NCBI RefSeq assembly: GCF_019430945.1
Contig: NZ_JAHYCB010000015.1
Span: 1-64,000, forward strand
Length of the DNA stretch: 64,000 nt
Reading direction: 5' to 3'
Source of the DNA: Neorhizobium populisoli
GTDB taxonomy: Bacteria > Pseudomonadota > Alphaproteobacteria > Rhizobiales > Rhizobiaceae
The notes beneath the pieces are model-generated. The model was not told where the DNA came from, searched no databases, and saw nothing but the letters and a program-made list of their open reading frames with translations. The position numbers and the translations under genes are program-made. Shown here in pieces: positions 1,444 through 63,657 of the stretch (positions are counted from its first letter, which is position 1; each line of letters starts with the position of its first letter).

Positions 1444-1468
1444 AACGACAAGATGGATGAAAGGTTCC
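1444..1468 (-). promoter_or_regulatory. EcfG-type promoter of the PRC-barrel gene
   Basis: On the minus strand GGAAC (1468-1464), 16 bp, then CGTT (1447-1444). It matches the alphaproteobacterial general stress consensus exactly and leaves a leader of about 45 nt before the start at 1394. Confidence 0.85.
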
Positions 1469-1673
1469 ATGCAAAACCATGAAATTATTGAGTGATTTCT
1501 TTAGCGACACGACATGCACCAGCATCCAAGCTGTAACATCGGGCACGCAAGTCTGCCTGGTATTACTCACTCACGCGATGGCTGTGCGGTACGTGGGCGG
1601 CCAGACATCGCCCACCGCCCGTTACTTCCAAGCGCCAATGCGCCCGGTCCTGGGCGCGAATGCCCTGAGCCGA

Positions 1674-3563
1674 TTAGATTTGCTTCAGTGCCAAAGCGAA
1701 AAGTCTCGCCTGCCGGCTCGCAAACGCGCGCGGATCTTTCGGTCGGTCACCGTCTAAAATCAGGGCCTCATCCAGTAAGAGCCACGCCGCATCTTCTCGA
1801 AATTCGTCATTTGTCACCGCCGCAAGGCTCTGAATGACTGGGCTCTGCGCATTGATTTCCAAAATCGGCTTGGACGCGGTCTGCAACCGCCCTGCCCCTT
1901 GGAGAATCTTTTCAAGCTGCCGGTCCGGCCCGTGTTCGGACGCCACAAGGCAGACAGAACTTTCCGTCAGTCGAGTCGACACCCGGACATCCGCTACCTC
2001 GTCTTTCAGGATACGACGGCTCACTTCGATGAAGTCGAGCACGCTCTGAGAGGCCTCTGACTTGTCGCCACCATCGCTACCGTTGCTTGAGATATCATCG
2101 AGATCGGCCTGCCCCTGGGTTACCGACTTGAGTGTCTTGCCCTCGAATTCACCCGCGTTCGTTGGCCAGAAACTGTCGACTTGGTCTGTCAGCAACAAGA
2201 CTTCGATGCCCTTGGCACGGAACCCTTCCAGATGCGGCGACGCCTTCAACTGTGCGAGACTGGAACCGCTGATATAATAGATGGAAGACTGCCCTTCCTT
2301 CATTGCCCCCAGATAATCGGACAAGCTGCGCGTCGCGTCTTCCGAGGCCGTCGTGCGGAAGCGTGCAAGCTTCAACAACTGCCCGCGACGTTCATAGTCT
2401 TCGTAAATGCCTTCCTTGACGATCGCACCGAACAGCTCCCAGAATTTGCCGAAGGTTTCTGGTTCACCCTCGGCCATCTTCTCCAAGCTCGTCAGGATGC
2501 GGCTGGTCAGCCCCTTGCGAATTGCCACGAGAACCGGGCTTTCCTGTATCATCTCACGCGAAATGTTCAGCGGCAGGTCCGACGTGTCGACCACGCCACG
2601 GATGAAGCGCAGGTAGCGCGGCAGCAACTCTGCCTCGTCGGTGATGAAGACGCGCTTAACATAGAGCTTCATCCGTCCGTGGCGCTCGACATCGAAAAGG
2701 TCGAAAGGCTGCGAACCGGGCACGAAGGCAAGTGCCGTATACTCATGGCGGCCTTCGGCGCGGAAATGCACATTCGCCAGCGGCTCGTCATACTGCCCGG
2801 AAACGCTGCGATAGAAATCGTCATACTCCTGCTTCGAGATCTCCCCTTTCGGCTTCGTCCACAGGGCTGCGCCATCAGTGACCTGGACTGCGTCCGCGCC
2901 GGGTTTCTCGATCAGCTTAATCGGCACAGGCACATGACCAGACTGGTCGCGGATGATCTTCTCGATCGTCCACTTACCCGTGTATTTCTGTGCGTCGCCC
3001 ATGAGGTGCAGGACGACGCGCGTGCCTCTGGCGGGAGCGTCTGCAGGATCGACGGCGACGACTTCATAACTTCCCTTGCCATCGGAGGACCACATCCATA
3101 CAGAGTCGTGCCCAGCACGCCTTGAGATGACGTCGACTTTGTCGGCAACCATGAAGGACGAATAGAAACCGACGCCGAACTGACCGATGAGTTCGGCCTT
3201 GTCGCCCGACTTCGCCGCTTCCAAGCGCTCCATGAAGGCACGCGTCCCCGACCGGGCGATCGTGCCGAGAGCGTCGATCATTTCGTCTCGGCTCATTCCA
3301 ATCCCGTTGTCTTCGACAATAAGGCTGGGCGCTTGCTCGTCGAGCTTGACCAGAATTTGCGGCTCTGAACCGTCGGCTGACAGATGTGGCTTTGAAATTG
3401 CTTCAAACCGCAGCTTCTCACAGGCGTCTGCCGCGTTGGAAATCAGTTCTCGAAGGAATACATCCTTATCCGAATATACGGAGTGAACCATCATCTGCAG
3501 GAGCCGGCTCACGTCAGCCTCGAAGGCGTGATGCTCGGGTTGGCGGTCTTCATTCGTCGTCAT
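1674..3563 (-). CDS. htpG: Molecular chaperone HtpG (Hsp90)
   Basis: A 629-residue protein, full length for the family. The N-terminal GHKL ATPase domain shows ELISNAADACEKLRF, DNGIGM and GQFGVGFYSSFMVADKV. The middle domain has the LPLNISREMIQ motif and the C-terminus has the dimerisation region. HtpG is the cytosolic Hsp90 that refolds and stabilises proteins under heat and oxidative stress. It stands alone in the minus orientation. No GGAAC-type promoter was seen in the 190 bp upstream, so it is probably controlled differently from its neighbours. Confidence 0.97.
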   Translation of the reverse strand: MTTNEDRQPEHHAFEADVSRLLQMMVHSVYSDKDVFLRELISNAADACEKLRFEAISKPHLSADGSEPQILVKLDEQAPSLIVEDNGIGMSRDEMIDALGTIARSGTRAFMERLEAAKSGDKAELIGQFGVGFYSSFMVADKVDVISRRAGHDSVWMWSSDGKGSYEVVAVDPADAPARGTRVVLHLMGDAQKYTGKWTIEKIIRDQSGHVPVPIKLIEKPGADAVQVTDGAALWTKPKGEISKQEYDDFYRSVSGQYDEPLANVHFRAEGRHEYTALAFVPGSQPFDLFDVERHGRMKLYVKRVFITDEAELLPRYLRFIRGVVDTSDLPLNISREMIQESPVLVAIRKGLTSRILTSLEKMAEGEPETFGKFWELFGAIVKEGIYEDYERRGQLLKLARFRTTASEDATRSLSDYLGAMKEGQSSIYYISGSSLAQLKASPHLEGFRAKGIEVLLLTDQVDSFWPTNAGEFEGKTLKSVTQGQADLDDISSNGSDGGDKSEASQSVLDFIEVSRRILKDEVADVRVSTRLTESSVCLVASEHGPDRQLEKILQGAGRLQTASKPILEINAQSPVIQSLAAVTNDEFREDAAWLLLDEALILDGDRPKDPRAFASRQARLFALALKQI

Positions 3564-3753
3564 CGGTCATCCCCAGATTGCTAAATTCGGGCGACAGATG
3601 GATTGCTAGCCAATAGTTTTCAAGAGTGTGTCGAGACGTCAATCACTCAAAACCTTGCTGTTGATACGACATGCGCCTGAGCTGCACCTCTTGCGAAAAT
3701 TGCGATCGAGAGCAAATACTCTGCCTACGACTCAGACTGCGGAATGCGTACAA

Positions 3754-3981
3754 ATGTTTTCAGGATCCCATCGTTCTCCCTTATCCACGGAATATACACA
3801 AGGCGACGTCACCGTAACGGTCGATATCAAACAGACGTTTCGCGATGCCGGGTGGGAACTCGAGGTGACGAGTGCCGATGGTCAAGTCACCGACTGGGAT
3901 TTGACCTTCGCAACGGATCGCGAGGCCTACGACGAATTCTTGTATGTGGTTGAGACAGAGGGCATTGAGGTGTTTGTATAA
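3754..3981 (+). CDS. Small conserved-looking hypothetical protein
   Basis: A 75-residue acidic protein with alternating beta-strand-like segments (VTVTVDIKQTF, WELEVTSADG). The start at 3754 is inferred because the sequence before it lacks coding character; a weak GGA lies 10 bp upstream. The family is not recognised. It lies between the convergent ends of htpG (divergent start) and topoisomerase IB. The composition looks like a real protein rather than a shadow. Confidence 0.5.
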   Translation: MFSGSHRSPLSTEYTQGDVTVTVDIKQTFRDAGWELEVTSADGQVTDWDLTFATDREAYDEFLYVVETEGIEVFV

Positions 3982-4061
3982 GGGCGGATCGTCTCAAGGC
4001 TTTGCGGCACGGTGGCCTTCAGCCCGGGATCCGTCGACGCCATTGCCACCACATTTCGCTC

Positions 4062-5152: not shown

Positions 5153-5177
5153 AACTCGCACAGCGTAGCGCAGTTCC
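5153..5177 (-). promoter_or_regulatory. EcfG-type promoter of topoisomerase IB
   Basis: Minus strand GGAAC (5177-5173), 16 bp, AGTT (5156-5153). The predicted transcript start lies within a few bases of the start codon at 5144. Confidence 0.7.
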
Positions 5178-6927: not shown

Positions 6928-6952
6928 GGAACTTCTGATATCATGTCCGGTT
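6928..6952 (+). promoter_or_regulatory. EcfG-type promoter of the DUF6894-Crp operon
   Basis: GGAAC (6928-6932), 16 bp, GGTT (6949-6952). The first downstream gene starts at 7093, giving a leader of about 130 nt, longer than at the other sites. Confidence 0.6.
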
Positions 6953-7365: not shown

Positions 7366-8082
7366 ATGAACCTCGCTGAAGCTGAAATCCATGAAAACAA
7401 ATTGTTGTCAGTTTTGCCTAGTGAAAGCTTAGCGCAAGCTGCATCACACCTGAAGTATCAGAGGCTCCCCCGCGGGACCCGACTCGCGAGCGCAGGAGAG
7501 CCAATAGATCATGTGTACTTCCTGACCTCGGGCGTTGGCTCCGTACTGGCTCAAACGCCTGAAGGAAGCGCCGCCGAGGCCGGAATTTTCGGCAGGGAGG
7601 GTTACATACCAACTTCCGCCGTCAGCGGTTCCGAGCAGAGCACCTTCGACGTGACAGTCCAGATAGACGCGGCGGGGTACCGCATAGGCTTCGAAGATTT
7701 TCGTCGCCAGATGGAAAGCAACCGGGCATTCGCAAAAGTCATGATCCGGGCAATCGAGGCCTTTGCGATCCAGCTCGCGTATACAGCAGTCTCGAATGCC
7801 GTGCACGACGTTACGGAGCGTCTCGCCCGGTGGATATTGATGTGCCACGATCGAGTGGGTGTTGACGAGTTACCGCTTACGCATGACTTCATCTCGACCA
7901 TGCTGGCGGTTCGCAGACCGAGCGTTACAACCGCTCTCCACATCTTGGAGGGAAACCGGTTCGTCATCGCAGAGCGCGGGATGCTGACCATCCGAGACCG
8001 TCCTGCCCTCGAGGAGTTCGCTCACGACGCTTACGGAAAGCCGGAACAAGAGTACCGGCGTTTAATGACCGGCCTCTTCTAG
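7366..8082 (+). CDS. Crp/Fnr family transcriptional regulator
   Basis: 238 residues: an N-terminal cyclic-nucleotide-binding-like fold (about 15-130, with PIDHVYFLTSGVGSV and FGREGYIPTSA) and a C-terminal winged helix (about 150-225) whose recognition helix reads RRPSVTTALHILEG. No FNR-type cysteine cluster is seen and the canonical cAMP-contact residues are not obvious, so the signal is unknown. It is probably co-transcribed with the DUF6894 gene under an EcfG-type promoter. The paralogue at 59481-60194 shares the same architecture. Confidence 0.9.
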   Translation: MNLAEAEIHENKLLSVLPSESLAQAASHLKYQRLPRGTRLASAGEPIDHVYFLTSGVGSVLAQTPEGSAAEAGIFGREGYIPTSAVSGSEQSTFDVTVQIDAAGYRIGFEDFRRQMESNRAFAKVMIRAIEAFAIQLAYTAVSNAVHDVTERLARWILMCHDRVGVDELPLTHDFISTMLAVRRPSVTTALHILEGNRFVIAERGMLTIRDRPALEEFAHDAYGKPEQEYRRLMTGLF

Positions 8083-8210: not shown

Positions 8211-8236
8211 GGAACACCATTGATCAACAAACGGTT
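8211..8236 (+). promoter_or_regulatory. EcfG-type promoter of the sigma factor gene (17-bp spacer)
   Basis: GGAAC (8211-8215), 17 bp, GGTT (8233-8236); it can also be read as N16 followed by CGGTT. It lies just upstream of the EcfG-like gene at 8261, which suggests positive autoregulation or control by another EcfG. Confidence 0.6.
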
Positions 8237-8260: not shown

Positions 8261-8752
8261 ATGCAAGATAACCGTTGCAGACTTCGCGTCGAAGCCGAAA
8301 TAATCGGATACATCCCAGCGCTGTACAAATTCGCCCACCGCTTTCATCGCACGGAGAGCGACGTCGAAGATCTGGTTCAAGACACCCTCCTGAAGGCGCT
8401 CGGAAATCTTGACAAGTTTCAGGAAGGGACGAGCGTGAAGTCCTGGATGTTTACGATAATGCGAAACGCATTTTGCACCAAGTACGCTCGCAACAAGCGC
8501 GAGCAGGTCGGATTGGACGATGTTCAGATAAACAAGTTTTCGACGAAACCGGAGCAGGAGTGGCGAGTGCAAGGCCAGGAGATCGAGCAAGCTATCGCCG
8601 CCCTCAACGCCGACCACCGTAAGGCGGTCGATCTGGTAATCCTGCAGGGCACGAGCTACGAGGACGCTGCGGTTTTGTGTCAGTGCGCTGTTGGAACAAT
8701 GAAGAGCCGCGTCAATCGCGCAAGGGCGTCGCTCTCTCGCATGCTGTCATAG
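8261..8752 (+). CDS. ecfG: EcfG-type (ECF15) RNA polymerase sigma factor
   Basis: 163 residues with sigma region 2 (about 12-75: FHRTESDVEDLVQDTLLKAL and GTSVKSWMFTIMRNAF) and region 4 (about 105-160: GTSYEDAA, CAVGTMKSRVNRAR). The wording closely follows the EcfG/RpoE2 general stress sigma factors of rhizobia. EcfG is held by the anti-sigma factor NepR and released by phosphorylated PhyR; neither gene is visible here, so this looks like a secondary EcfG copy, as known for some Rhizobium species. The start is set by GAGGAG 8 bases upstream. Its own promoter is of the type it would recognise. Confidence 0.85.
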   Translation: MQDNRCRLRVEAEIIGYIPALYKFAHRFHRTESDVEDLVQDTLLKALGNLDKFQEGTSVKSWMFTIMRNAFCTKYARNKREQVGLDDVQINKFSTKPEQEWRVQGQEIEQAIAALNADHRKAVDLVILQGTSYEDAAVLCQCAVGTMKSRVNRARASLSRMLS

Positions 8753-9570: not shown

Positions 9571-9770
9571 CATTTCCCTTTTTGATCGCTGCCTGAAATC
9601 ACGTCTGGCGGGCTGAGCGCTGGAGATGTCGCCCCATCGAAGAAACCGTATGCCAGACCCAGTAAACCAGCGAGCGTAACGGCGAACGCAGCAACCGTCC
9701 CTTTTTTCGAGGCTACGGACATTGCGAGGCCTAGAAGGGCGGCTCCGACTGCTACCGCGGTGAAGGACAT
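9570..9770 (-). CDS. Small two-helix membrane protein
   Basis: About 66 residues starting MSFTAVAVG, with two hydrophobic helices (residues 1-17 and 25-46) and a polar tail ending SGSDQKGK. Longer frames starting at 9782 or 9848 are possible, but the EcfG-type -10 at 9792-9795 puts the transcript start near 9785, which favours the 9770 start and excludes the 9848 start for this transcript. First gene of a three-gene operon of tiny membrane proteins. Confidence 0.65.
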   Translation of the reverse strand: MSFTAVAVGAALLGLAMSVASKKGTVAAFAVTLAGLLGLAYGFFDGATSPALSPPDVISGSDQKGK

Positions 9771-9791
9771 TATCGTAATCATGCCGCAGCG

Positions 9792-9816
9792 AACTGAAAT
9801 AAGAGCAAAGAGTTCC
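9792..9816 (-). promoter_or_regulatory. EcfG-type promoter of the tiny membrane protein operon
   Basis: Minus strand GGAAC (9816-9812), 16 bp, AGTT (9795-9792), 22 bp before the chosen start at 9770. Confidence 0.7.
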
Positions 9817-10086
9817 ATTTGTTGGGCTACATCGACGTGCGAGTGCATTGGCTCTCAGTTTGGGACAAGGCTAGTCGTAAGTCGAAGCGGTACGGCTAGA
9901 ATGTCCGCCCCCGAATGGCCACCGAACCTCACGCGATCTACCGGAAGGTTTGATCGAACTCCCGGCAGGCCTGCTCTCCGGCAACCTCATCGGTGCAAGT
10001 GGTTGAGAACCCAAGCGTGTCACATATGAGCAGCGGGCGGATACGCGATGCGACGAGACCGGTCGCACCAACGCCGGGGAAGACAT

Positions 10087-10845: not shown

Positions 10846-10870
10846 GGAACTTCGTCTCACACGGTCAGTT
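10846..10870 (+). promoter_or_regulatory. EcfG-type promoter of the 10896-12856 operon
   Basis: GGAAC (10846-10850), 16 bp, AGTT (10867-10870), 25 bp before the start at 10896. Confidence 0.8.
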
Positions 10871-11272: not shown

Positions 11273-12247
11273 ATGCATTACGATCCTAACGCCATTTTCA
11301 CAGCGAAAGATATAAGGCGAGCCGGGCGGTTAAACAAACTGCTAAAATGGGTCCCGAGATACCGCACGAGCGGCAGGTTCAACGCCCGGTTCATCAACGG
11401 CATGTGTTCGGTAGGACGCCATCTGGCCGCAGAGCCCGCAAACATCGGCGTGATGGTCAAAAGCCTATCGGTGAATGGCGGTAAGCTGCCGATCCGCGTC
11501 CTGTTTCCCGAAAAGCCGCGTGCCTTGCTTCTTCATTTTCATGGCGGAGCCTGGGTGATTGGGGACTCTAAGCTAGATGATAATTGGAATGTCGAATATG
11601 TCCGCCGCTGTCGTGTCGCAGTGGCTAGTGCCAATTTTCATCTGGCGACAGACGATGATCTCGCGCAGACGATCAGGGACGCGCACGCTTTTACTAGGTG
11701 GGCGCTGGACAGCCGAGCCAATTTTGGCGTCGACAAAGTTTTTCTGGAGGGTGAGTCTTCGGGTGCCCACCTTGCCGCGTCTTCTCTTGTCCGGTTGTCG
11801 CGCAGTCGGTCGCTTGAGTGTATTGCCGGACTTGTCTCCTACTGTGGAGCGTTCGATCTCTCTGGTCCCGCCAGCCTCAAACTGGCAGCTGACAGCCTCG
11901 TCATCGACCCGCAGGCTGCAGGCAGAAACTTGGATCGACTTCTGGAAGGGTCACCTTCACTCGCAGTGGATGATCCCGTTGTATCGCCGTTGCGTGCCGA
12001 CTTGATTGGAATGCCGCCCGGCCTCTTCATTGCCGGACAACTTGACCCGATCATCGGCGACAGCCGGTCGATGCAGACGCGTTGGCAAGACGTCTGCGGG
12101 AACGCGGACCTGCTGGTCGTGCCGGAAGGACCCCATGGTTTCCATCGCTTTCCCACCCGACTGGCGGCGCGGACAAAGACGGTTGCCGTTGAATGGATCA
12201 ACCGCAGACTGCGGAACGAGGTGCAGGAAGCATCGTTTAATGCTTAG
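11273..12247 (+). CDS. Alpha/beta hydrolase (HSL-like esterase)
   Basis: 324 residues with the hormone-sensitive-lipase features: HFHGGAWVIG (oxyanion hole), nucleophile elbow GESSGAH, acidic residue in GQLDPI and the catalytic histidine in EGPHGFH. Such enzymes cleave short-chain esters of unknown identity. No signal peptide, so cytosolic. A heavily decayed paralogue lies at 18003-18695. The next gene starts 16 bp downstream. Confidence 0.88.
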   Translation: MHYDPNAIFTAKDIRRAGRLNKLLKWVPRYRTSGRFNARFINGMCSVGRHLAAEPANIGVMVKSLSVNGGKLPIRVLFPEKPRALLLHFHGGAWVIGDSKLDDNWNVEYVRRCRVAVASANFHLATDDDLAQTIRDAHAFTRWALDSRANFGVDKVFLEGESSGAHLAASSLVRLSRSRSLECIAGLVSYCGAFDLSGPASLKLAADSLVIDPQAAGRNLDRLLEGSPSLAVDDPVVSPLRADLIGMPPGLFIAGQLDPIIGDSRSMQTRWQDVCGNADLLVVPEGPHGFHRFPTRLAARTKTVAVEWINRRLRNEVQEASFNA

Positions 12248-12263: not shown

Positions 12264-12728
12264 ATGTCTAACGCCACTCAGGACAATCAGCGCGGCACCA
12301 AGAACAACGGTGTGAGCGATACGGAATTCGGCAAGTCCGTTGAAAGCCAGGCGCAGATTGCGGATGCTGCGATCTTGGCCTCTGGTACCGACCCAGGCGA
12401 GGTCTTGAATGTATATCGGTTGGAACCGGTCGCACCGCCCGACGACTTCAGGTGGGACAAAGCACAAAGCCACGGATCGATTTATGTCGCGGCGCGGACA
12501 GCTGGCGACGCGCGCATCGTTGCTGCTGGACACGAGGGTGACTTTCTCGAAATGGCATCCCTCCCAAGCGAAGACGTGACGACAAGGCATGCGAGCGCCT
12601 TCCGCGACGAGAAGGCATACACCGTTATCGAAGTCGCCAATGCGGTGCCGGGTCTCCATCGCGGGCTGGTTGAGGATAAAGCGAAATTGGAACGGCTGGC
12701 CTCCTCCAATGGCGACATGCTTCGTTGA
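12264..12728 (+). CDS. Unrecognised 154-residue protein
   Basis: A soluble protein, start MSNATQDN at 12264 behind AGGAG. The N-terminal 35 residues are polar and probably disordered; the rest is mixed alpha/beta with no motif I can name. It is placed 16 bp after the hydrolase and its stop overlaps the start of a tiny membrane protein gene (TGATG), so it belongs to the same predicted stress-induced operon. Confidence 0.65.
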   Translation: MSNATQDNQRGTKNNGVSDTEFGKSVESQAQIADAAILASGTDPGEVLNVYRLEPVAPPDDFRWDKAQSHGSIYVAARTAGDARIVAAGHEGDFLEMASLPSEDVTTRHASAFRDEKAYTVIEVANAVPGLHRGLVEDKAKLERLASSNGDMLR

Positions 12729-12858: not shown

Positions 12859-12883
12859 GGAACCGGAAGCGCCATACATTGTT
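12859..12883 (+). promoter_or_regulatory. EcfG-type promoter of the first DUF982 gene
   Basis: GGAAC (12859-12863), 16 bp, TGTT (12880-12883), 30 bp before the start at 12914. Confidence 0.8.
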
Positions 12884-13444: not shown

Positions 13445-13469
13445 GGAACTAATCGTCGACGGCAGAGTT
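13445..13469 (+). promoter_or_regulatory. EcfG-type promoter of the 13499 operon
   Basis: GGAAC (13445-13449), 16 bp, AGTT (13466-13469), 29 bp before the GTG start at 13499. Confidence 0.75.
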
Positions 13470-14305: not shown

Positions 14306-16147
14306 TCACCTTTGATTCGGCCGCTCCTCGCGCACTGCCTCCGCAATCCGTAAGAGCAGCGACACGCTGGCCAACTGCTCTATCGCAACGGAGAGTTTTG
14401 GCTTCCAGTTCGGGTAACTGTCGCTGGTACCGGGAATATTCGTGGGACGCTTCTCACCTGTCATGTCTGCCAGTCGAACCCCAGCCAGCATCGACGCAGT
14501 TTTTGCGATGAAGCGATGAGCGCTGACGATCAGGTCATTCAGCTTGTGCTCGCCCGCGGCGGAAGAAGGCAGGCGGTTTGGCGGATCCGTGCCTGCCTCC
14601 TCCAGCGCAACCTTCAGATCCTCTCGCTCATGCTGGCGTTCTTTGACATGCGCTTCTGTCAAGTCAGGAGGAACAACCCCATGATCCAACCTGGCTTTGA
14701 TGTCAGCGCCACGCCACCACCCAGCCAGTGTTTGATGATCATGGGTCGAAATACACGCGAGCGACAGCCGCGGATAAGCCTCCGTGGGCTTAAAGCCTTC
14801 TTCTTCCCGTTCATAAGACAAAATGCGGTAGGACAGGATCTGAGCTTCAGCGAGGTCTTTCTGCAAGCCGTCCGGCAGCATCCCTAAATCTTCTCCGATG
14901 ACCAGACATCTGAATTTCGACGACGCCTCCGCCAAAATCTGCAGCAATCCGTTTTGTGGGTAGTCCACATAGGCACCTCCCTCGGGCAAACTTTCAAGGG
15001 GTACGAGAAACAGCCGGCGCAAGGCTGCGGCATGATCGATCCTGATGGCGCCCGCGTAACGCATCGCAGCTGTTACCATCCGTCGATAGGGAGCATCGTC
15101 GCCCGACACGATCTTTGCCGGATGGAAAGCAGCCAGATGCCAATCCTGGCCGTTGGGCGCGAAGGGATCAGGGGGACTTCCAACCGTGGCATCGGCAATA
15201 TAGGCGTCCGGTTCACTCCAAGTCGCCGATCCATCGATTGCTTCACCAACGGCCAGATCAAGATAAAGGCCAATACGCAAACCGGCGTCCCGAGCCGTCT
15301 CGGCGACCCGGATTAGTTGCTGATTGCAAAGCCATTGCAGCCAAATGTGAAAGTCGATGGTGTCTGCATGTTCGTCGGCAAACGCGGCAACCTCCGCGCT
15401 TTCCGGCTGCTGATACGCCGCGGGCCAGGATTTCCAGCCAGTGCCGCTGCCCTTTTCACCCATGAAGGCTGACAGGGCTTCGAACAACGCGTGCCGCCGC
15501 AAGATTTCGCCGCCGTTCGCTACGAAGGCCTCGAAGTTTTGCCGAGACGAATTGTCTGATAAGCGCCGCCAGCTCGCCCAGACTTCCCGCAAAACCGCGA
15601 GTTTAGTCTCGGCTACCTGGATATAATCGACGAGATCAGTTGATCGCAACTCCTGTAACCTTGCTTCGAGTTCCGAAGTGCTTTCAAAGCTAGTAATTTT
15701 GTCGACGGCGATGTAGAGCGGATTGAGCATCTGCCGGTTCGACGGCTCATACGGGCTGCACCGATCGGGATCGGCAAGAAACGGCGCATGCAGCGGGTTG
15801 AGCCCGACGAAATCGGCGCCGAGCGTGGCGGCAAAACGGACCATTTCGACAAGGTCTTCAAAGTCACCGATGCCCCAGTTCCGTTCCGATCGAAGTTCAT
15901 AGAGCTGCAGACTGATCCCCCACACACGGTCGGCCTCGAGAAAATGCGGAAGGAAGGATGGCGCGATTTTATTGTTCTCAGGACTCTTTCGAACCGGTTT
16001 TTGCGGTTCGCTGTCAACCGCGACGCCGAGCGCCGCAAGAACTTTGCGTTTCACGCTATCGGTAATCGGTACCTCCACGTTTTCCGGGCTTGGCCTTGTC
16101 AGGCTGATCCCATGCTCTTTGGCCAGTTGGTCGAGGTCCCTATCCAT
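14306..16147 (-). CDS. malQ: 4-alpha-glucanotransferase (amylomaltase)
   Basis: 613 residues, GH77. Landmarks are WGISLQLYELRSERNWGIGD, GADFVGLNPLHA, the nucleophile region RIDHAAALRRLF, the acid/base region VIGEDLG and STHDHQTLAGWW. MalQ transfers glucan chains between alpha-1,4-glucans and works with TreY/TreZ in making trehalose. The start at 16147 overlaps the end of the preceding gene by 8 bp, whose second half is the tail of TreZ. So malQ is the surviving intact member of a treZ-malQ operon. Transcription probably comes from the EcfG-type promoter at 16843-16867. Confidence 0.93.
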   Translation of the reverse strand: MDRDLDQLAKEHGISLTRPSPENVEVPITDSVKRKVLAALGVAVDSEPQKPVRKSPENNKIAPSFLPHFLEADRVWGISLQLYELRSERNWGIGDFEDLVEMVRFAATLGADFVGLNPLHAPFLADPDRCSPYEPSNRQMLNPLYIAVDKITSFESTSELEARLQELRSTDLVDYIQVAETKLAVLREVWASWRRLSDNSSRQNFEAFVANGGEILRRHALFEALSAFMGEKGSGTGWKSWPAAYQQPESAEVAAFADEHADTIDFHIWLQWLCNQQLIRVAETARDAGLRIGLYLDLAVGEAIDGSATWSEPDAYIADATVGSPPDPFAPNGQDWHLAAFHPAKIVSGDDAPYRRMVTAAMRYAGAIRIDHAAALRRLFLVPLESLPEGGAYVDYPQNGLLQILAEASSKFRCLVIGEDLGMLPDGLQKDLAEAQILSYRILSYEREEEGFKPTEAYPRLSLACISTHDHQTLAGWWRGADIKARLDHGVVPPDLTEAHVKERQHEREDLKVALEEAGTDPPNRLPSSAAGEHKLNDLIVSAHRFIAKTASMLAGVRLADMTGEKRPTNIPGTSDSYPNWKPKLSVAIEQLASVSLLLRIAEAVREERPNQR

Positions 16148-16814
16148 GAACGTCACTTTCTGCTGAAACTGATTTAAGCTGAGTGGATTGAATGCTGAAG
16201 ATGACGAGCCAAGGAGATAAAGTCTCATCGGTGGATGATCCCAGCGAAAAAATCCGCTTGGCTGACGGCGACGTCTGGTACTGCGCCGGCTTCTCAGAGA
16301 GGTTCGCAATCAGGAGGAGCCTCGCCCGATCTTTCAGCACCCACTCGTCAGCGGTGACACTGCCTTCCCGTCGGAACGAACCGCCTCCACCGCCAAGGCC
16401 GTGCAACAGCGGCATGATCCGTTGATGCCGCAGAGCAAGAAGGGTCCAATAAAAGGCGAGCATTTCGGACGAATTTGGATCGATCAGCCTGGACCAGTCG
16501 AGTTTTGCCGCTTCGAACGTTGACTGCACCGTGGGATCAAGCAGGTCGTCGGCATCAAACCCCGGAAGGCGCGCCGTCGGCCTCGCATCCCTACCAAAAC
16601 GCCGCTCGGCGAATTCTACGGTGGTGCCGCTTGAGGTGAGCAAACCTGCATCTATCAATTCCCATTCGCCCTGGCCTGACGGGATGCCGTAGAAGATCCC
16701 ATTTACGATCGAGAGCTGCCGGTAAGCAAGATCCGCTGCGAAACCTTTGGTACCGTCCGCCATATCCTCGAGCGGTACGAGATCGGCATTTTCCAGCACT
16801 AATTGGGTTGTCAT
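16140..16814 (-). pseudogene. Chimera: metallo-beta-lactamase-fold N-terminus joined to TreZ C-terminus
   Basis: An open frame of 224 residues. Residues 1 to about 82 (LAYRQLSIVNGIFYGIPS, WELIDAGLL, AERRFGRDARPTA) match the start of MBL-fold hydrolases but stop just before the THGHFDH metal motif. The rest (STFEAAKLDWSRL, LLALRHQRIMPLL, LLLIANLSEKP, LSPWLVIF) matches the C-terminal domain of malto-oligosyltrehalose trehalohydrolase. Both catalytic centres are missing. The frame has remained open across the joint, most simply the product of one in-frame deletion. Start MTTQLVL at 16814 behind GGAG and an EcfG-type promoter. Confidence 0.75.
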
Positions 16815-16842
16815 GAAGGTCTCCGGTGGCTGTATCCTGCGC

Positions 16843-16867
16843 AACCGGGGTGGGGCAGGAAAGTTCC
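16843..16867 (-). promoter_or_regulatory. EcfG-type promoter of the MBL-TreZ chimera and malQ
   Basis: Minus strand GGAAC (16867-16863), 16 bp, GGTT (16846-16843), 29 bp before the start at 16814. It is divergent from the Mn-catalase promoter 40 bp away. Confidence 0.75.
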
Positions 16868-16906: not shown

Positions 16907-16931
16907 GGAACTTTGTCGACTGCGCTGTGTT
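16907..16931 (+). promoter_or_regulatory. EcfG-type promoter of Mn-catalase
   Basis: GGAAC (16907-16911), 16 bp, TGTT (16928-16931), 28 bp before the start at 16960. Confidence 0.8.
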
Positions 16932-16959: not shown

Positions 16960-17784
16960 ATGTTTTATACCGATAACAAGCTGCAGTTTCCCGTTCGCGT
17001 GGAAACTCCAGATCCATTGTTCGCCCGAGCGTTGCAGCAGGCAATTGGCGGCGTAGAAGGTGAAATTCGCGTGGCGATGCAATATTTCTTCCAGGCTTGC
17101 GGCGCCCGTGGCAATCCGAAGTTCCGCGATCTGCTGATGAACACAGCTGCCGAGGAACTCGGCCATATCGAGATGCTGGCGACAGCGGTCGCACTTAATC
17201 TTGAAGGTGCTCCCGTTTCCATCAAGGATGAAGTCGCCGCCGACCCGGTGGCGAGCGCGGTGCTCGGCGGCCTCAACATGAAGAACCTATTGTCGGCCGG
17301 CCTATCCGCAATGCCCGTGGATTCCGACGGCGTGCCGTTCGACATGTCTCACATCTACGCCAGCGGAAACATCGCCGCTGACATGACCGCGAACGTTGCC
17401 GCGGAATCGACCGGCCGCGTGCTGGCAACCCGCCTCTTCAATCTTACAAATGATCCGGGTATGAAGGAAATGTTGTCGTATCTTATCGCCCGCGACACAA
17501 TGCACCAGAACCAGTGGCTGGCCGCGTTGGAGGAGCTTGGCGGATCGAAAGCTGTCTTCCCAATCCCCAACAGCTTCCCGCAAGAGCAAGAGTTGAAAGA
17601 GTTCAGCTATGCCTTCCTCGGCTTCCAGAACGATGGCAGTGCGCCACCTGCCGGCCGCTGGTCGGAGGGAACGTCCATAGATGGGAAGGGTACGTTCTCC
17701 TCAACGTCGCTGGAGCCGTTGGGACAAACGCCGGTGCTGGGGCCGGCGAAACCGAAAAGCGGTGCGCAACTCGAGCAGATGTAA
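16960..17784 (+). CDS. Manganese catalase
   Basis: 274 residues with a ferritin-like four-helix core. The dimanganese ligands of the Lactobacillus plantarum enzyme (E35, E66, H69, E148, H181) find counterparts at E35, E66, H69, E149 and H182. The enzyme splits hydrogen peroxide to water and oxygen. The C-terminus ends in the family tail GAQLEQM. The ATG follows AGGAG. A decayed second copy lies at 54268-54937. A GC-rich hairpin follows the stop. Confidence 0.94.
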   Translation: MFYTDNKLQFPVRVETPDPLFARALQQAIGGVEGEIRVAMQYFFQACGARGNPKFRDLLMNTAAEELGHIEMLATAVALNLEGAPVSIKDEVAADPVASAVLGGLNMKNLLSAGLSAMPVDSDGVPFDMSHIYASGNIAADMTANVAAESTGRVLATRLFNLTNDPGMKEMLSYLIARDTMHQNQWLAALEELGGSKAVFPIPNSFPQEQELKEFSYAFLGFQNDGSAPPAGRWSEGTSIDGKGTFSSTSLEPLGQTPVLGPAKPKSGAQLEQM

Positions 17785-18002: not shown

Positions 18003-18695
18003 ATCGGGCTGCGTGTTGCCGGATGGTACCCCTAGAGGCATCTATGTCCACTTCCACGGCGGGGGCGTGGGTGCTGGGCAATGCACGCCTGGATGACGGG
18101 ATCACCCCGCAGATTGCGAAAGAGTGCCAGGTTCTGGCTGTTGCGGTCGATTTCCACAACGCTTCCGACGACCGCGTCGACAAATTTGTCGACGACCGTG
18201 AGGCTGCCCTCGAATGGATGTGTGGAGCCTTGCGGCGCTCGGCGTCGCGCGAATTGTGATTGGACGCGAATCATCCGGTGCTCATCTGGCGGCTCAGGCT
18301 TTGCTGCTGTTGAGAGACCGGGGAATGGCAACGGCGTTTTCGGTTTCATCTCGACGTGTGGAGCGTTTGATTCAGCGGCTCGCCGAGCCTGAAGCGCTCG
18401 ACCGATCGCTCTTTGATCGCCAGCGGGCCCCCGGCCTATCTATCTTCAGAGGCTGCGCCCACACTTGCGGCGCGAAGAAGCGGGCGGTCCTTGGTTCGCA
18501 CGACTTCACGGGCTGCCACCGGCTCTTTTCATTGCCGGTGAACTCGATCCCATCATCGACGACACTGAAATGCCCCGAGCGCGGCAGCGGGCTAACAGCA
18601 ACGCGACCCTGACCGTTTCTCCCCTCGGCTCGCATGGCTTCAATCGCCTTCCATCGGCACTCGCGGCGATGACAAATGCTTCGGCAAGACGATGA
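18003..18695 (+). pseudogene. Decayed alpha/beta hydrolase (paralogue of 11273)
   Basis: Pieces of an HSL-like hydrolase appear in order but in different frames: VHFHGGG, AGAWVLGNARLDD, VDFHNASDD, IVIGRESSGAHLAAQ, ISTCGAFD, LFIAGELDPIIDD and LGSHGFNRLPSA. At least four frame changes separate them. Same order and spacing as the intact gene at 11273-12247. Not functional. Confidence 0.88.
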
Positions 18696-19093: not shown

Positions 19094-20284
19094 TCATCGA
19101 TCCACCTCCCCAAAAACGATGTCTAACGAACCTAGGACCGCCGAGACGTCGGCAAGCTGGTGTCCCCTGCACATATAATCCATCGCTTGCAGGTGGGTGA
19201 ACCCTGGTGCCCTGATCTTGCAGCGGTACGGGCTGTTTGTTCCGTCAGCGATCAAATACACGCCAAACTCGCCTTTCGGAGCCTCGACGGCGGCATAGGC
19301 TTCGCCTGCCGGAACATGGAAGCCCTCTGTATATAGCTTGAAGTGATGGATCAGGGCCTCCATCGAGCGCTTCATCTCTGCGCGTTTCGGCGGCACGACC
19401 TTGCCATCGGCAGAGGAGAAGGGGCCCGTCGCTTCGCTCGACAGCAGACGGTCAACGCACTGCTTCATGATGCTGGCCGATTGCCGCATCTCGATCATCC
19501 GGATCAGGTAGCGATCATAACAATCGCCGTTTTTGCCGATGGGTATTTCGAAATCCAGCTCCGAATAGCACTCGTAGGGCTGCGATCGCCGCAGATCCCA
19601 CGCCGCGCCGGATCCGCGAACCAGCACACCGGAAAAGCCCCATGCCCAGGCGTCATCTAGCGATATTACCCCGACATCGACATTTCGTTGTTTGAAAATG
19701 CGGTTGTTGGTTAGCAGACCCTCAATATCATCGAGCGTGTTTGGGAACGTCTCGCACCAGCGGCCGATATCCTCGACCAAGTCTCTTGGAAGATCCTGGT
19801 GCACGCCTCCAGGCCGGAAATACGCCGCGTGCATGCGAGACCCGGAGGCGCGCTCGTAAAACACCATCAGGTTCTCGCGCTCTTCAAAACCCCATAACGG
19901 CGGTGTCAGCGCACCGATATCCATGGCCTGGGTAGTGACGTTGAGGAGGTGGGACAAGATCCGGCTGATCTCGGCATAAAGCACCCTTATCAGCTGACCG
20001 CGGATCGGAACCTGCAACCCCAGCAGCTTTTCGATCGCCATGCAGTAGCCGTGTTCCTGGCACATCGGCGCTACATAATCCAGCCGATCGAAATATGGCA
20101 GAGCCTGGAGATAGGTCTTCGCCTCGATCAGCTTTTCCGTCCCGCGGTGCAAGAGGCCGATATGGGGATCTACGCGCTCAACCAGTTCTCCGTCGAGTTC
20201 GAGGACCAGGCGAAGGACCCCGTGGGCGGCCGGATGCTGCGGCCCGAAATTGATGTTGAAATTTCTGACATTGTGCTCGGGCAT
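19094..20284 (-). CDS. nuoD: NADH-quinone oxidoreductase subunit D
   Basis: 396 residues, full length. It carries [10 protein letters not shown], the [14 protein letters not shown] segment, [10 protein letters not shown] with the quinone-site tyrosine, and [12 protein letters not shown]. NuoD is the 49-kDa subunit that forms the quinone pocket in the peripheral arm of complex I. It starts 8 bp after nuoC. No nuoA, nuoB, nuoE or other subunit gene is present on either side, and the pair has its own EcfG-type promoter, so it may replace the main NuoC/NuoD under stress or form another complex. Confidence 0.93.
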
Positions 20285-20292
20285 CCGCGTCC

Positions 20293-20907
20293 TCAGCCTT
20301 TGCTATCGGTTGATTTTTCGTCGCCAGGCAGGACGTAGTCGGTGCCCTCCCACGGGGACAAGAAGTCGAAGTGTCGATATTCCTGACGGAGTTCGACGGG
20401 TTCGTAGACGACCCGTTTCGCGGCATCATCGTACCGAACCTCAACGTAACCCGTGAGCGGAAAGTCCTTTCGCAGCGGATGGCCTTCGAACCCGTAATCC
20501 GTCAGAAGTCGCCGGAGGTCCGGATGACCCTCGAACAAGATGCCGTACATGTCCCAGGCTTCCCGTTCATACCAATCCGCAGCCGGGTAGACGCTGCACG
20601 CCGATGGCACCGGCAGGTCTTCCGTCGTTGTCAGCTTAAGCCGAACGCGCTGGTTGAGCTGAGGCGAAAGCAGGTGATAAACGACATCGAAACGCTCCGC
20701 TCGCTGCGGCCAGTCCACCCCGCAAATATCCAGCAGACAGATAAATCTGAACCTCATGTCGTCACGCAGAAGCAGCAGGAGAGGAATTATCGTCTCGCGG
20801 CTCGTGGTTAACGTCAGTTCATCGAGGCGGATGTCAGCCGCCGTGTAAAGACCCGAACATGTCGTCTCGACTTGCTCTCGCAATAAGGAAAGATTGCTGT
20901 CCACCAT
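20293..20907 (-). CDS. nuoC: NADH-quinone oxidoreductase subunit C
   Basis: 204 residues. Family motifs are [24 protein letters not shown], and the signature [21 protein letters not shown] followed by [10 protein letters not shown]. NuoC is the 30-kDa subunit that packs against NuoD. The gene opens a two- or three-gene operon behind an EcfG-type promoter at 20935-20959. The sequence shows no sign of decay. Confidence 0.92.
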
Positions 20908-20934: not shown

Positions 20935-20959
20935 AACAATGGTTCGAGGAAAGAGTTCC
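20935..20959 (-). promoter_or_regulatory. EcfG-type promoter of nuoCD
   Basis: Minus strand GGAAC (20959-20955), 16 bp, TGTT (20938-20935), 28 bp before the nuoC start. Confidence 0.78.
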
Positions 20960-22865: not shown

Positions 22866-22890
22866 AACCTCATCCAGAACCGAAAGTTCC
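22866..22890 (-). promoter_or_regulatory. EcfG-type promoter of the 22843-21619 operon
   Basis: Minus strand GGAAC (22890-22886), 16 bp, GGTT (22869-22866), 23 bp before the start at 22843. Confidence 0.75.
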
Positions 22891-23982: not shown

Positions 23983-24450
23983 CTACCAGGCCGGGCGGGT
24001 TATCATCAGCCAGACAATGGCGAGGACAGCGCCGAAAGCAGGAAAGCCGAAAAAGAACCAGCGCCGGAACAGCGCATAGTACCGCTGCGGCAATTCAAGC
24101 CCTTGTCGGTCGGCTTCGGCCGCGAGGTCCCGCATCTCCATCTGCATCCACACGACCGGCAGCCAGAAGATCCCGGTCAGGATGTAGAGCATGATTGAGA
24201 CGACGATCCAGCCGTCAGTGAGAGAGTAGCCAACGGTCCAGGCGAGTGCGATTCCACTAACGGGCTGCACCACGACAGCAGTTGCGGTGAAGAGGAAGTC
24301 CGCGAGAACCACGATGCGAGCGACAGGTGCGACCGTCGACGCCTTTCCCGTTCGATGCGCAATCAGCATGAAGAACGCAATTCCAGCTCCGGTTCCCAGC
24401 AGCACGCAGGCGCCGATGATGTGGATGAATTTCAAGAGGAAGTAGAGCAT
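23983..24450 (-). CDS. DUF2269 family membrane protein
   Basis: 155 residues with four predicted membrane helices, starting MLYFLLKFIHIIGACVLLG with a conserved histidine in the first helix and ending in WLMITRPAW. DUF2269 proteins are integral membrane proteins of unknown function. The ATG overlaps the end of the SDR-DoxX gene, indicating coupled translation. Confidence 0.83.
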   Translation of the reverse strand: MLYFLLKFIHIIGACVLLGTGAGIAFFMLIAHRTGKASTVAPVARIVVLADFLFTATAVVVQPVSGIALAWTVGYSLTDGWIVVSIMLYILTGIFWLPVVWMQMEMRDLAAEADRQGLELPQRYYALFRRWFFFGFPAFGAVLAIVWLMITRPAW

Positions 24451-25795: not shown

Positions 25796-25820
25796 AACTT
25801 CACGAACGTGCCGAAGTTCC
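25796..25820 (-). promoter_or_regulatory. EcfG-type promoter of the SDR-DUF2269 operon
   Basis: Minus strand GGAAC (25820-25816), 16 bp, AGTT (25799-25796), 60 bp before the start at 25736. Confidence 0.72.
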
Positions 25821-26273
25821 CTAGAGGTGGACCGGCTAGGCGGAGGCTTCCAAATTGTTTGTCCGGCCGGCATTCAAACTGAGTTCACGGTTGTTGCAGT
25901 ACACGTCACGGCTATGGAGATGCCGAAAAAGGACCAACGGCTCTGGGGCCTGCTGTCTGCGCTACCGACGGATATGGCGAAGGCCGCCTAAGGGCACCGG
26001 GCTCAAGACGTCAATACGGTGCTGGAGTTTGGCTTGATGTTGGCGCGGGGCGACTTGAAGCAGAGACGTTATCGCTTGACGGCGGTGGGGGCACAGTTGA
26101 CGAAGCGGCATGTCGATCAACACGAAATGGGTAAATAAGGCTGCGAACACATGCTGCGCCTGCTTTGGCCCGTGGCCGGCTGCGGCGTCTCTTTTACCGC
26201 CACATCCGGTTTGGCTGGGCCACGCTCCGCATCAACAGCTGCAGTCACCCGTAACTCCGAGTAAGCCAAAGTC
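25821..26273 (+). other. Intergenic stretch between two divergent stress promoters
   Basis: About 450 bp flanked by the promoter at 25796-25820 and the one at 26274-26298. Short open frames are present on the plus strand but none resembles a known protein. Possibly decayed coding sequence; nothing further can be supported. Confidence 0.35.
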
Positions 26274-26298
26274 GGAACAAATGTGGCGGAAAGGTGTT
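26274..26298 (+). promoter_or_regulatory. EcfG-type promoter of the DUF892 gene
   Basis: GGAAC (26274-26278), 16 bp, TGTT (26295-26298), 69 bp before the start at 26368. Confidence 0.75.
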
Positions 26299-38759: not shown

Positions 38760-38784
38760 GGAACTCCGGGATGGCCTCGTTGTT
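38760..38784 (+). promoter_or_regulatory. EcfG-type promoter of the DUF4142 gene
   Basis: GGAAC (38760-38764), 16 bp, TGTT (38781-38784), 32 bp before the start at 38817. Confidence 0.78.
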
Positions 38785-43655: not shown

Positions 43656-43680
43656 GGAACTCATGGCAATGTCAGAGGTT
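43656..43680 (+). promoter_or_regulatory. EcfG-type promoter of the SDR-cytochrome operon
   Basis: GGAAC (43656-43660), 16 bp, GGTT (43677-43680), 31 bp before the start at 43712. Confidence 0.75.
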
Positions 43681-54128: not shown

Positions 54129-54153
54129 AACCAAGACCGGCGCTCGGAGTTCC
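54129..54153 (-). promoter_or_regulatory. EcfG-type promoter of the YdeP-cytochrome oxidase run
   Basis: Minus strand GGAAC (54153-54149), 16 bp, GGTT (54132-54129), 27 bp before the start at 54102. It could drive the genes from 54102 to 45514, which are co-directional with mostly overlapping ends. Confidence 0.75.
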
Positions 54154-57718: not shown

Positions 57719-57743
57719 AACCGGAAGCTCACCGGATTGTTCC
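57719..57743 (-). promoter_or_regulatory. EcfG-type promoter of the nutrient-deprivation operon
   Basis: Minus strand GGAAC (57743-57739), 16 bp, GGTT (57722-57719), 58 bp before the start at 57661. Confidence 0.75.
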
Positions 57744-58949: not shown

Positions 58950-59303
58950 TTACTGGACCAGGCGGCATTCTCGCACCGCTTCAATAAAGTCGTCGGGCTT
59001 GCAGGGTTTGGTGATCCACCGACACTTGCTTTTCACCAGCGGAGACGCGCCTTACCTGTCATAGACGCCGGAACGGACGATGTAACAGATGCCGCGTGCG
59101 CCAAGTGCGGCAGCGTCCCTAAAACGCGTCTCGATGACCGCTAGTTCCGGCGTATGCTCTTCCAGCCCGTTGGCGACTGCGGAGCATGACGAGCATATAT
59201 TGATGGTGCGGAAACCGCCTTTTCGACAACATCTTCAAAAAAAAAGCGCGATCAGTGCCTGATCTCCCAAAAGCAGGACGGTTTCCTTTTCGTAATTTGC
59301 CAT
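58950..59303 (-). pseudogene. Response-regulator receiver pseudogene
   Basis: Starts MANYEKETVLLLGDQALIAL behind GGTGGAAG, then breaks at a run of nine T (59237-59245 on the minus strand) before EDVVEKA. Later pieces in other frames: EEHTPELAVIETRFRDA, RGICYIVRSGVY, SKCRWITKPCKPDDFIEAVRE with the conserved Lys-Pro, and a stop at 58950. At least three frame changes. Confidence 0.72.
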
Positions 59304-62760: not shown

Positions 62761-62803
62761 GTCTCTTCGTCTCGCAGAATGGGCTCAGTGATCTACAAGA
62801 GCC

Positions 62804-63060
62804 GATCAAGCTCGATGACGGTCGGGACGCCGGTCTGGATGGGGGCGTTGAAGACCTCCTTATCGACCCACCGGAAACGAAGTGCACCGAGGCGGGTTTC
62901 GTCGGCAACTCCCAGCAGGTAGTCGCTTTCGGCGAGGGTGCGAACCGATCGCCTCCCGCTCCGCGCTGCGACGCTCCGTGCGTTGCATGAGCCGCTTCCC
63001 GTACGTGTTAGGAGCAGAGTCTCTGATCGACCCGCACGTTGCCCAGCCTGTCGGCGGAGC
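62804..63060 (-). pseudogene. HipA-type toxin kinase remnant
   Basis: In two frames: SAPNTYGKRLMQRTERRSAERE, then VRTLAESDYLLGVADETRLGALRFR and an IELDRLL tail. These match the segment of HipA proteins with the PDRWGR, L-M-x-R-R-E and DYLLGVxDxxRxGALRF signature. The kinase core is absent. It follows the hipB-like gene below in the usual hipBA order. Confidence 0.75.
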
Positions 63061-63211
63061 AAAGGCCCCGCGGGTCAATGCAAGCGCCGGTTCCAGCGAG
63101 AAGCGATCGGGATGCTTCAGTCGATCCCGATGCCGACTTCAAGCGGAGGCGCCTAGACAGATCGGCACCGGCAAGCGCCTGGCCGACACCGTCGTTGCTG
63201 ATGTCAGGCAC

Positions 63212-63442
63212 CTAGGTAAGCCCGTCGAGTAGCTCTAACGCCAGGAGAACGCCCGCATATATCCCGATGCTGACACTCGTGTCTCCCGCCTCTATCTTTT
63301 GCAGCGTCGAGCGCGAGGTAAAAGCTCGTTCTGCAACGACCGCCATCTGCAGCTTACGTCGACGACGAGCATCCTGGATATCCGCACCGAGCTTTCGCAA
63401 AGCGCGCCGGACGACTGCCGGTGGTTGATGGGGAGTAGGCAT
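63212..63442 (-). pseudogene. HipB-like antitoxin gene with an early stop
   Basis: A 76-codon frame starting MPTPHQPPAVVRRALRKLGA, with the XRE helix-turn-helix (IQDARRRRKLQMAVVAERAF, SRSTLQKIEAGD). The stop TAG at 63212 is followed in the same frame by VPDISNDGVGQALAGADLSRRLRLKS, which fits the normal C-terminal tail of this family (D-P-x-N-D-x-V-G-x-A-L). The HTH part could still bind DNA, but its toxin partner is a remnant. Confidence 0.65.
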
Positions 63443-63631
63443 GTCGGACCTTCGCGCTACCGTTTTGCTTTTATGAAGCACGAAGCTAACAATATTTTTT
63501 TGATCACAACACAATCACTCGCCACGATGACCAATGCGATGAATACGCCTAGTCGGAGACGGCCGAGCAGCGTCTTCGCGTGAACTTGCGAGAGAGAATC
63601 CGCAATACGCGGACGGGGCCGCAGTTCAGAC

Positions 63632-63657
63632 GGAACAATACAAATGTCGGAGCGGTT
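63632..63657 (+). promoter_or_regulatory. EcfG-type promoter of the response regulator gene (17-bp spacer)
   Basis: GGAAC (63632-63636), 17 bp, GGTT (63654-63657); also readable as N16 and CGGT. It lies 33 bp before the start at 63691. Same variant as in front of the sigma gene at 8261. Confidence 0.55.

Follow-up and report, generated by a model that had tools for sequence, protein, structure and literature searches.

This report concerns a 64,000-nucleotide (nt) stretch of the Neorhizobium populisoli genome, referred to here as the window, and the cluster of candidate EcfG-type promoters that it carries together with a gene for a non-canonical sigma factor of the EcfG (ECF15) family. The window spans bases 1-64000 of contig C7 (103,072 bases), in a genome of 6.84 Mb and 52 contigs whose sequence relatives are Rhizobiaceae. 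On its two strands we found 27 exact matches to GGAAC-N16/17-NGTT, 23 with an N16 and four with an N17 spacer; an earlier note on the same DNA had counted about 21 (19 N16 and 2 N17), and the dense cluster that it described is real while its count was low. Open reading frames (ORFs) backed by Pfam were taken for genes, and gene-finder calls were set aside owing to weak starts. The matches and the principal genes are as follows, with lengths in amino acids (aa) and starts backed by a ribosome-binding site (RBS) or a Shine-Dalgarno (SD)-like tetramer noted where relevant.

1444-1468, minus: putative promoter, N16 CGTT, 49 nt before a PRC-barrel gene (927-1394)
5153-5177, minus: putative promoter, N16 AGTT, within a long topoisomerase IB ORF, 110 nt before an RBS-backed internal start (326 aa)
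6928-6952, plus: site, N16 GGTT, before a DUF6894 gene (59 nt to the longest-ORF start, 140 nt to the RBS-backed start)
7366-8082, plus: Crp/Fnr-family regulator gene (Pfam), adjoining the sigma gene
8211-8236, plus: putative promoter, N17 GGTT, 24 nt before the sigma gene start
8261-8752, plus: non-canonical EcfG (ECF15) sigma gene, 163 aa (Pfam, PDB match, identity to EcfG2)
9792-9816, minus: site, N16 AGTT, within ORF 9573-9848, no clear start downstream
10846-10870, plus: putative promoter, N16 AGTT, 25 nt before a 112-aa ORF
12213-12237, plus: putative promoter, N16 CGTT, at a hydrolase gene end, 26 nt before ORF 12264-12728
12859-12883, plus: putative promoter, N16 TGTT, 75 nt before a 71-aa ORF
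13445-13469, plus: putative promoter, N16 AGTT, 29 nt before a 60-aa ORF
16843-16867, minus: putative promoter, N16 GGTT, 28 nt before a 224-aa ORF with a TreZ C-terminal domain
16907-16931, plus: putative promoter, N16 TGTT, 28 nt before the Mn-catalase gene
16960-17784, plus: Mn-containing catalase gene (Pfam PF05067, E 1.7e-78)
20935-20959, minus: putative promoter, N16 TGTT, 27 nt before a nuoC-nuoD pair
22866-22890, minus: putative promoter, N16 GGTT, 22 nt before a 54-aa ORF
25796-25820, minus: putative promoter, N16 AGTT, 59 nt before an epimerase/DoxX-like gene (24450-25736), SD-like tetramer not found, both boxes kept in three relatives
26274-26298, plus: putative promoter, N16 TGTT, 69 nt before a DUF892 gene, boxes kept in three relatives
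26368-26868, plus: DUF892 gene (Pfam PF05974), start set by alignment
30329-30353, plus: site, N16 GGTT, within ORF 30226, no start found, may be chance
30444-30468, minus: site, N16 AGTT, within ORF 30226, no start found, may be chance
30834-30858, minus: putative promoter, N16 GGTT, 50 nt before ORF 30223-30783
33338-33362, minus: putative promoter, N16 TGTT, 28 nt before a DUF982 gene
33588-33612, plus: putative promoter, N16 GGTT, 27 nt before an SPW-repeat gene
38760-38784, plus: putative promoter, N16 TGTT, 32 nt before a DUF4142 gene
42875-42900, minus: site, N17, within a GH15 gene, probably chance
43656-43680, plus: putative promoter, N16 GGTT, 31 nt before a short-chain dehydrogenase gene
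54129-54153, minus: putative promoter, N16 GGTT, 26 nt before a 54-aa ORF
57719-57743, minus: putative promoter, N16 GGTT, 57 nt before an operon-like three-gene run ending in holin-X and DUF3618
59123-59148, minus: site, N17, RBS-backed start not found within 160 nt
63632-63657, plus: site, N17, RBS-backed start not found within 160 nt

One hundred dinucleotide shuffles of the window gave a mean of 3.01 and a maximum of 8 matches, compared to the 27 observed. Spacing is restricted, with 23 matches at a total spacer of 17, four at 18, and none to two at each of the spacers 13-16 and 19-22. A genome-wide count, which the earlier note had proposed as a check, yielded 382 matches in 6.84 Mb, so that the window, with 27 sites versus 3.6 per 64 kb, is about 7.6-fold denser than the genome. 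The whole-genome excess is small (382 versus 338 for the reversed pattern), as would be expected if a short pattern simply recurred by chance in a G+C-rich genome. For the set of sites in the window, however, this explanation is refuted by the shuffles, the wrong spacings, the placement before starts and the conservation in relatives, and we regard it as extremely unlikely, although single sites inside genes may be chance. The reversed pattern was itself dropped as a background for the genome search because codon use differs for reversed words; wrong spacings and a phase-matched N13 pattern were used instead. All four bases occur at the first -10 position, as had been noted, but the tally for the 23 N16 sites is G 9, A 6, T 6 and C 2 rather than G 7, T 6, A 5 and C 1. 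A T directly follows GGAAC in 16 of these 23 sites.

Most sites lie upstream of gene starts and are oriented with them, a placement that the earlier note had claimed for all of its 21. With a start test that called for an SD-like tetramer and a start codon opening an ORF of at least 40 codons, 20-60 nt past the -10, 15 of the 23 N16 sites passed, compared to 8 of 129 GGAAC boxes without GTT and 1 of 16 GGAAC..GTT pairs at twelve wrong spacings; 12 of the 15 passing distances were 22-32 nt. A looser test (18-120 nt, ORF of at least 30 codons) was passed by 18 of 23 N16 sites and one of four N17 sites. The divergent promoters at 25796 and 26274 have GGAAC, GTT and the N16 length intact in Rhizobium wenxiniae, R. 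sp. NFR07 and R. cauense, with variable spacer sequences; at 26274, before the DUF892 gene, the -10 of the four genomes opens with T, G, T and T, while at 25796 all four have A. Between these two promoters (about 25914-26150, plus strand) there is also a stretch well conserved in the three relatives, opening with a shared ATGGAGATGCCG, which could be an unlisted small gene or a remnant.

The genes behind the sites include those for PRC-barrel, topoisomerase IB, Mn catalase, NuoCD, epimerase/DoxX, DUF892, DUF982, SPW, DUF4142 and short-chain dehydrogenase, among which PRC-barrel, Mn catalase, DUF892, DUF4142 and DUF982 are typical of stress. GGAAC-N16/17-NGTT promoters ahead of genes, as in a general stress regulon, are present in the window, and its description as a stress-response island with an EcfG-like sigma is borne out by an ECF15 sigma gene and mostly well-placed EcfG-type promoters before typical stress genes. 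It is very unlikely that the sites instead belong to another sigma factor reading GGAA, such as a member of ECF26. The S. meliloti ECF26 protein RpoE6 does have a motif similar to that of ECF15, and it increases some RpoE2 targets (PMC6180224), but the ECF26 consensus is GGAATA/GT (PMC6180224), a difference to be read with the caveat that GGAAC was imposed by our search pattern. In addition, the gene set of the window resembles the EcfG regulon of S. melonis (PRC-barrel, topoisomerase IB, catalase and trehalose genes; PMC6599016).

The window sigma factor matches Sigma70_r2 and Sigma70_r4_2 in Pfam, with PhyR_sigma2 slightly below its cut-off (25.8 versus 27 bits). Its best PDB match is chain A of 5uxx, 'RNA polymerase sigma factor' (E 9.5e-33), an entry that we take to be a Bartonella NepR complex, and among 25 NCBIfam models shown the sole one reaching its cut-off is the general TIGR02937 (sigma70-ECF). 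Having sigma regions 2 and 4 only, and being nearest to EcfG proteins, it falls in ECF15, an assignment made by similarity. At E 1e-5 the genome has nine matches to it, itself included, and the next two are on contig C23 at 561 kb (46%) and 495 kb (40%). The genome's sole NepR match (E 0.001) and its best PhyR match are both at C23:495 kb, beside the third-ranked sigma, with none in the window; the C23:495 kb sigma is therefore the canonical EcfG, and the window sigma, an ECF15 protein encoded away from the phyR locus with neither nepR nor phyR adjacent, is a non-canonical paralog.

Region 2.4 tells the same two classes apart. The 25 canonical rows of our alignment read NEFY(S/T)QMRK, while the window sigma reads NAFCTKYAR; the residue after the invariant Asn is Glu in all 25 canonical rows and Thr (23), Ser (2), Ala (1) or Ile (1) in the 27 non-canonical ones. 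The helix that reads the -35 (CAVGT.KSR) is largely common to both. A tree of 52 rows sets four canonical proteins apart as a single clade (100/100) on a long branch; the window sigma clusters, with weak support, with R. wenxiniae and two more relatives. Its gene lies near one end of the site cluster rather than in the middle, and the N17 site (GGTT) 24 nt ahead of its start may serve autoregulation or cascade input. SigU/EcfG2 of two species was reported as not bound by NepR (PMC4814048). Crp-type genes such as the one adjoining the window sigma gene recur near non-canonical ecfG in other islands.

Contig C7 carries repA, repB and repC in one run at 97.5-101.1 kb (L002 13450-17139), identified by RP-C domains, by ParB_N with RepB slightly below cut-off, and by a ParA-type AAA_31; C7 is therefore a repABC plasmid or part of one. 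A VirC1-like ATPase, DUF1173 and an ArdC-type anti-restriction gene are also on the plasmid (C7:73.8-80.4 kb; L001 9832-16368).

Similar islands exist on other plasmids. Of 72,556 plasmid records, 303 matched the window sigma at E 1e-20, a number that includes canonical relatives on large replicons. Across the nine plasmid regions that we examined (L180-L184, L206-L209), ferritin-like/DUF892, Crp/Fnr, DUF4142, DUF982, catalase, treZ and PAS genes lie near the sigma gene. N16 sites number 14, 19 and 14 per 40 kb on R. etli p42f, A. fabrum pAt1D1478 and R. leguminosarum pR132503, and 11 and 10 per 30 kb on A. salinitolerans pDG3-1d and Rhizobium sp. N324 pRspN324b; L183 (5 N16) and the S. meliloti RpoE5 region (L209, 7 N16) are site-poor. 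Four Shinella loci (L024, L029, L030, L031) bring sigma, Crp and DUF892 genes together in 20 kb. Among 34 loci around DUF892 relatives (L017-L050), 24 have at least three N16/N17 sites, and the two from Sphingobacteriales and Mucilaginibacter have none.

The closest known systems share the plan but differ in detail. R. etli CFN42 EcfG2 (RHE_PF00052, on p42f) is likewise a plasmid-borne non-canonical ECF15 sigma, 51.6% identical to that of the window, and its gene, too, has neither a response-regulator nor an anti-sigma gene nearby (PMC3892343). The 14 N16 sites of its 40-kb island, 12 of them non-C at the first -10 base, accompany ferritin-like, DUF4142, alpha/beta hydrolase and Crp genes; unlike the window sigma, EcfG2 falls in another sub-lineage of the tree, where deep supports are weak. 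On A. fabrum pAt1D1478 the sigma is 56% identical and has treZ, glgA, Crp/Fnr, catalase, DUF892 and DUF4142 genes nearby, with one CGTT among its 19 N16 sites, but the gene order is different and an annotated full treZ adjoins the sigma gene. Plasmid pRspN324b shares a YdeP-like/caa3-oxidase operon (58-79% identity) and the three-gene DUF3618/holin run (50-56%), which there stand beside a non-canonical sigma in an island whose 10 N16 sites include no CGTT, whereas in the window both blocks are about 37-49 kb away from the sigma gene. S. meliloti RpoE5 is also a second ECF15 sigma on a secondary replicon (pSymB; 44% identity), but its region has only seven N16 sites in 30 kb, two of them CGTT. 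Lastly, canonical EcfG proteins (RpoE4/RpoE2/SigT) with NepR and PhyR are ECF15 kin that share the GGAAC -35, and differ from the window sigma in identity (40% for the EcfG of its own genome) and in having Glu, rather than mostly Thr, after the invariant Asn of region 2.4.

Given these islands on Rhizobium and Agrobacterium plasmids, the window is very probably a plasmid-borne module of the known alphaproteobacterial general stress response, made up of about 20 EcfG-type promoters and a non-canonical EcfG gene with its own promoter, on a repABC plasmid. The sites, their spacing, most of their placements before starts, the two conserved sites, the plasmid and the paralog were computed directly. 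We infer transcription from the sites, the identity of the acting sigma and the order of the cascade. It is established for the general stress response that PhyR and NepR free canonical EcfG under stress. Stress would thus first release the chromosomal EcfG; EcfG-type sigma factors would in turn activate the plasmid sigma gene from its N17 promoter; and the stress genes of the island would be transcribed by EcfG holoenzymes, probably with the plasmid paralog among them.

Several observations weigh against this reading. Eight of the 27 sites fail even the looser start test (N16 at 6928, 9792, 25796, 30329 and 30444; N17 at 42875, 59123 and 63632); 42875 lies within a Pfam-supported gene and 9792, 30329 and 30444 lie within ORFs, and some of the sites that fail start tests may be chance. 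Sites close to a sigma gene may be read by another sigma. According to a review, non-canonical EcfG lacks autoregulation (PMC8103513), and no GGAAC-N16/17-NGTT site was found upstream of R. etli ecfG2 on its own strand, unlike in the window. S. meliloti RpoE5, when overexpressed, had a single putative target, and is itself activated by RpoE2 (PMC6180224).

To compare the first -10 base between sigma neighborhoods, we tallied those N16 sites that have a start 18-120 nt further on. The canonical EcfG proteins of the loci used (L067, L171, L173, L176, L178, L185-L204) are of two types, NEFYSQ (S-type) and NEFYTQ (T-type), a division noticed after the site counts were known, and CGTT is near-strict around NEFYSQ only: C accounts for 43 of 48 sites at S-type loci (14 loci, of which four are from the window's own genus and hence not independent) and for 10 of 25 at T-type loci (11 loci). 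In the window it accounts for 2 of 18, leaving 16 non-C (Fisher p 3e-9 versus S-type). Low fractions recur in seven plasmid islands (C 6/59, G 35), four Shinella loci (C 1/20), ten loci of window-like sigma factors (C 5/23), R. wenxiniae (C 0/5) and L207 (C 2/8); at L209, the RpoE5 locus, it is 2/4. Around four chromosomal non-canonical loci of the window's genus, C makes up 8 of 18 (Fisher p 3e-4 versus S-type), a proportion that counts against the promoter preference considered next. On pAt1D1478, where 15 of 44 matches were taken as loci, start-supported sites are G 9, T 3, A 1 and C 1 of 14.

These counts raise the possibility, which we place slightly short of an even chance, of promoter dialects that share the GGAAC -35: a canonical EcfG with NEFYSQMRK would ask for CGTT, and plasmid-borne non-canonical EcfG, with another residue (mostly Thr) in place of the Glu that follows the invariant Asn of region 2.4, would prefer GGAAC-N16-GGTT/TGTT/AGTT. 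As a lead the idea is testable and of moderate strength. The counterpart of the invariant Asn in SigH of M. tuberculosis, Asn88, contacts T-10, and Ile91/Asn92 contact the -11 G:C pair (PMC6411747); that section of the paper does not discuss the neighboring first -10 base. The chromosomal non-canonical loci of the window's genus stand somewhat apart. The one at C23:550-570 kb (L068) has a denser cluster still, with 12 sites in 20 kb, and over the four together (L068, L170, L172, L177) N17 spacers occur as often as N16 ones (24 of the 42 sites supported by a start); they perhaps form a third dialect, defined by spacer length.

A competing account, which is plausible if somewhat doubtful, needs only one EcfG that reads all sites: core genes (phyR, nepR-ecfG) would keep the strong CGTT and peripheral genes the weaker GGTT, TGTT or AGTT, with the paralog adding dose only. 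In Sphingopyxis granuli, EcfG1 and EcfG2 were both assayed in vitro on TGTT, CATT and GGTT promoters and shared them, with more transcript once a box was altered towards CGTT and more from EcfG2 than from EcfG1 (PMC7083833); EcfG2 of M. extorquens is reported without a regulon of its own, with a C/GGTT consensus (PMC4814048), and the first -10 base is free in EcfG targets of S. melonis Fr1 (PMC6599016). Site counts outside the islands agree with this account and count against the dialects: on other sampled contigs of the same genome 25 of 37 start-supported N16 sites are non-C, and on S. meliloti pSymB the 15 start-supported sites show a mixture of first bases (G 7, C 6, A 1, T 1), a result against any strict dialect that led us to drop this replicon as a 'canonical only' control, although its RpoE5 had just the one putative target noted above. 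The pSymB sample comprised the first 30 of 105 matches, all on the forward strand, plus the RpoE5 region, or 37 distinct sites. Plasmid p42f as a whole is also mixed (15 of 38 matches taken as loci; G 3, A 3, T 2, C 3 of 11 start-supported), again contrary to a dialect.

Published R. etli data bear on both accounts. The EcfG1 motif there is GGAAC-N16-CGTT, present before 19 of 56 units (PMC3892343), which argues against a single EcfG reading core and periphery alike. The EcfG2 regulon was measured in the same study (Jans et al.), where the motif search on EcfG2-regulated promoters came up empty and the EcfG1 consensus fitted 1 of 19 units (PMC3892343), counter to what a dialect would predict. 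Upstream of katG, reported to depend on EcfG2, we found no own-strand GGAAC within 259 nt and no N16/N17 site nearby, so this gene lends the dialects no support.

Whole genomes were then compared by N16 counts against the N13 control, which keeps codon phase, in 39 of 247 genomes. S-type canonical-only genomes (12 genomes, 6 genera) have an excess of CGTT (560 versus 442, +118) and none of non-C sites (933 versus 959, -26), whereas genomes with a non-canonical EcfG (15 genomes, 11 genera) have more of both (C 1008 versus 737; non-C 1771 versus 1235, +536), a contrast that tells against the core-and-periphery account. In T-type canonical-only genomes (12 genomes, 8 genera) C (340 versus 427) and non-C (545 versus 702) are both about 20% below N13, so the control is biased there and the excess unreadable. 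The non-C ratio differs between genomes bearing a non-canonical EcfG and S-type genomes without one (Mann-Whitney p 2.5e-4; 1.7e-4 minus the window's own genus), while the C ratio shows no such difference (p 0.51); with S and T pooled for comparison, a size-matched test gave p 8e-4. Exceptions in the non-C ratio are G204 (0.89) and G222 (1.00), which have a non-canonical EcfG, and G147 (1.37), which has none. Groups were set by sigma class after the N16 counts were known and before the N13 counts. The sequence itself gave the type in 6 of 12 S and 11 of 12 T genomes, and the others took theirs from a fellow member of the genus; 'canonical only' denotes no clearly non-canonical match at E 1e-30, and for G059, G156 and G136 the match itself was not listed. 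Within 18 genera, compared as raw N16 sites per Mb with genomes of ambiguous 41-42% matches left out, the presence of a non-canonical EcfG goes with a higher density of non-C sites in 14 of 18 (Wilcoxon p 0.012) and of C sites in 10 of 18 (p 0.55); the non-C fraction is higher in 11 of 18 (p 0.18), not a clear difference.

Several further features of the window were observed. The genes at 16143-16844 and 14306-16228 are an ORF with a TreZ C-terminal domain only and a GH77 gene similar to the MalQ portion of a MalQ-TreY fusion; despite the EcfG-type promoter 28 nt before the short ORF, 14306-16844 looks like a shortened trehalose operon. The TreZ of pAt (600 aa) has no match in the window at E 1e-3, and just the NCBIfam TreZ model matches, with 33 bits. 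An alpha/beta hydrolase (Abhydrolase_3) gene fragment at 18044-18259 is likely a remnant. The nuoC-nuoD pair (19094-20907) lies behind an EcfG-type promoter, and no other complex I subunits occur among the 80 Pfam-scanned ORFs of the window. A 193-aa ORF at 10087-10668 matches the DnaA C-terminal helix-turn-helix (PF08299, 37.7 bits).

EcfG, the GGAAC-N16-CGTT motif, the flexibility of the -10 and plasmid-borne non-canonical EcfG are already in print, and more than one EcfG-type sigma occurs in about half of sequenced alphaproteobacterial genomes (PMC3892343). In the literature covered, which included few subscription papers and some papers in part, we came across neither a description of EcfG promoters that cluster with paralogs on plasmids nor one of a dialect in the first base; what is new here is a plasmid-borne variant of the known general stress response and, possibly, a promoter dialect. 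A 2021 review states that the target promoters of non-canonical EcfG have 'a pattern yet to be determined' (PMC8103513). If the dialect is true, it would be this missing pattern, for which the islands offer a concrete and cheap prediction, and plasmids could carry a stress regulon that is less well read by their host's main EcfG. The islands also put many genes of unknown function into a stress regulon carried by plasmids.

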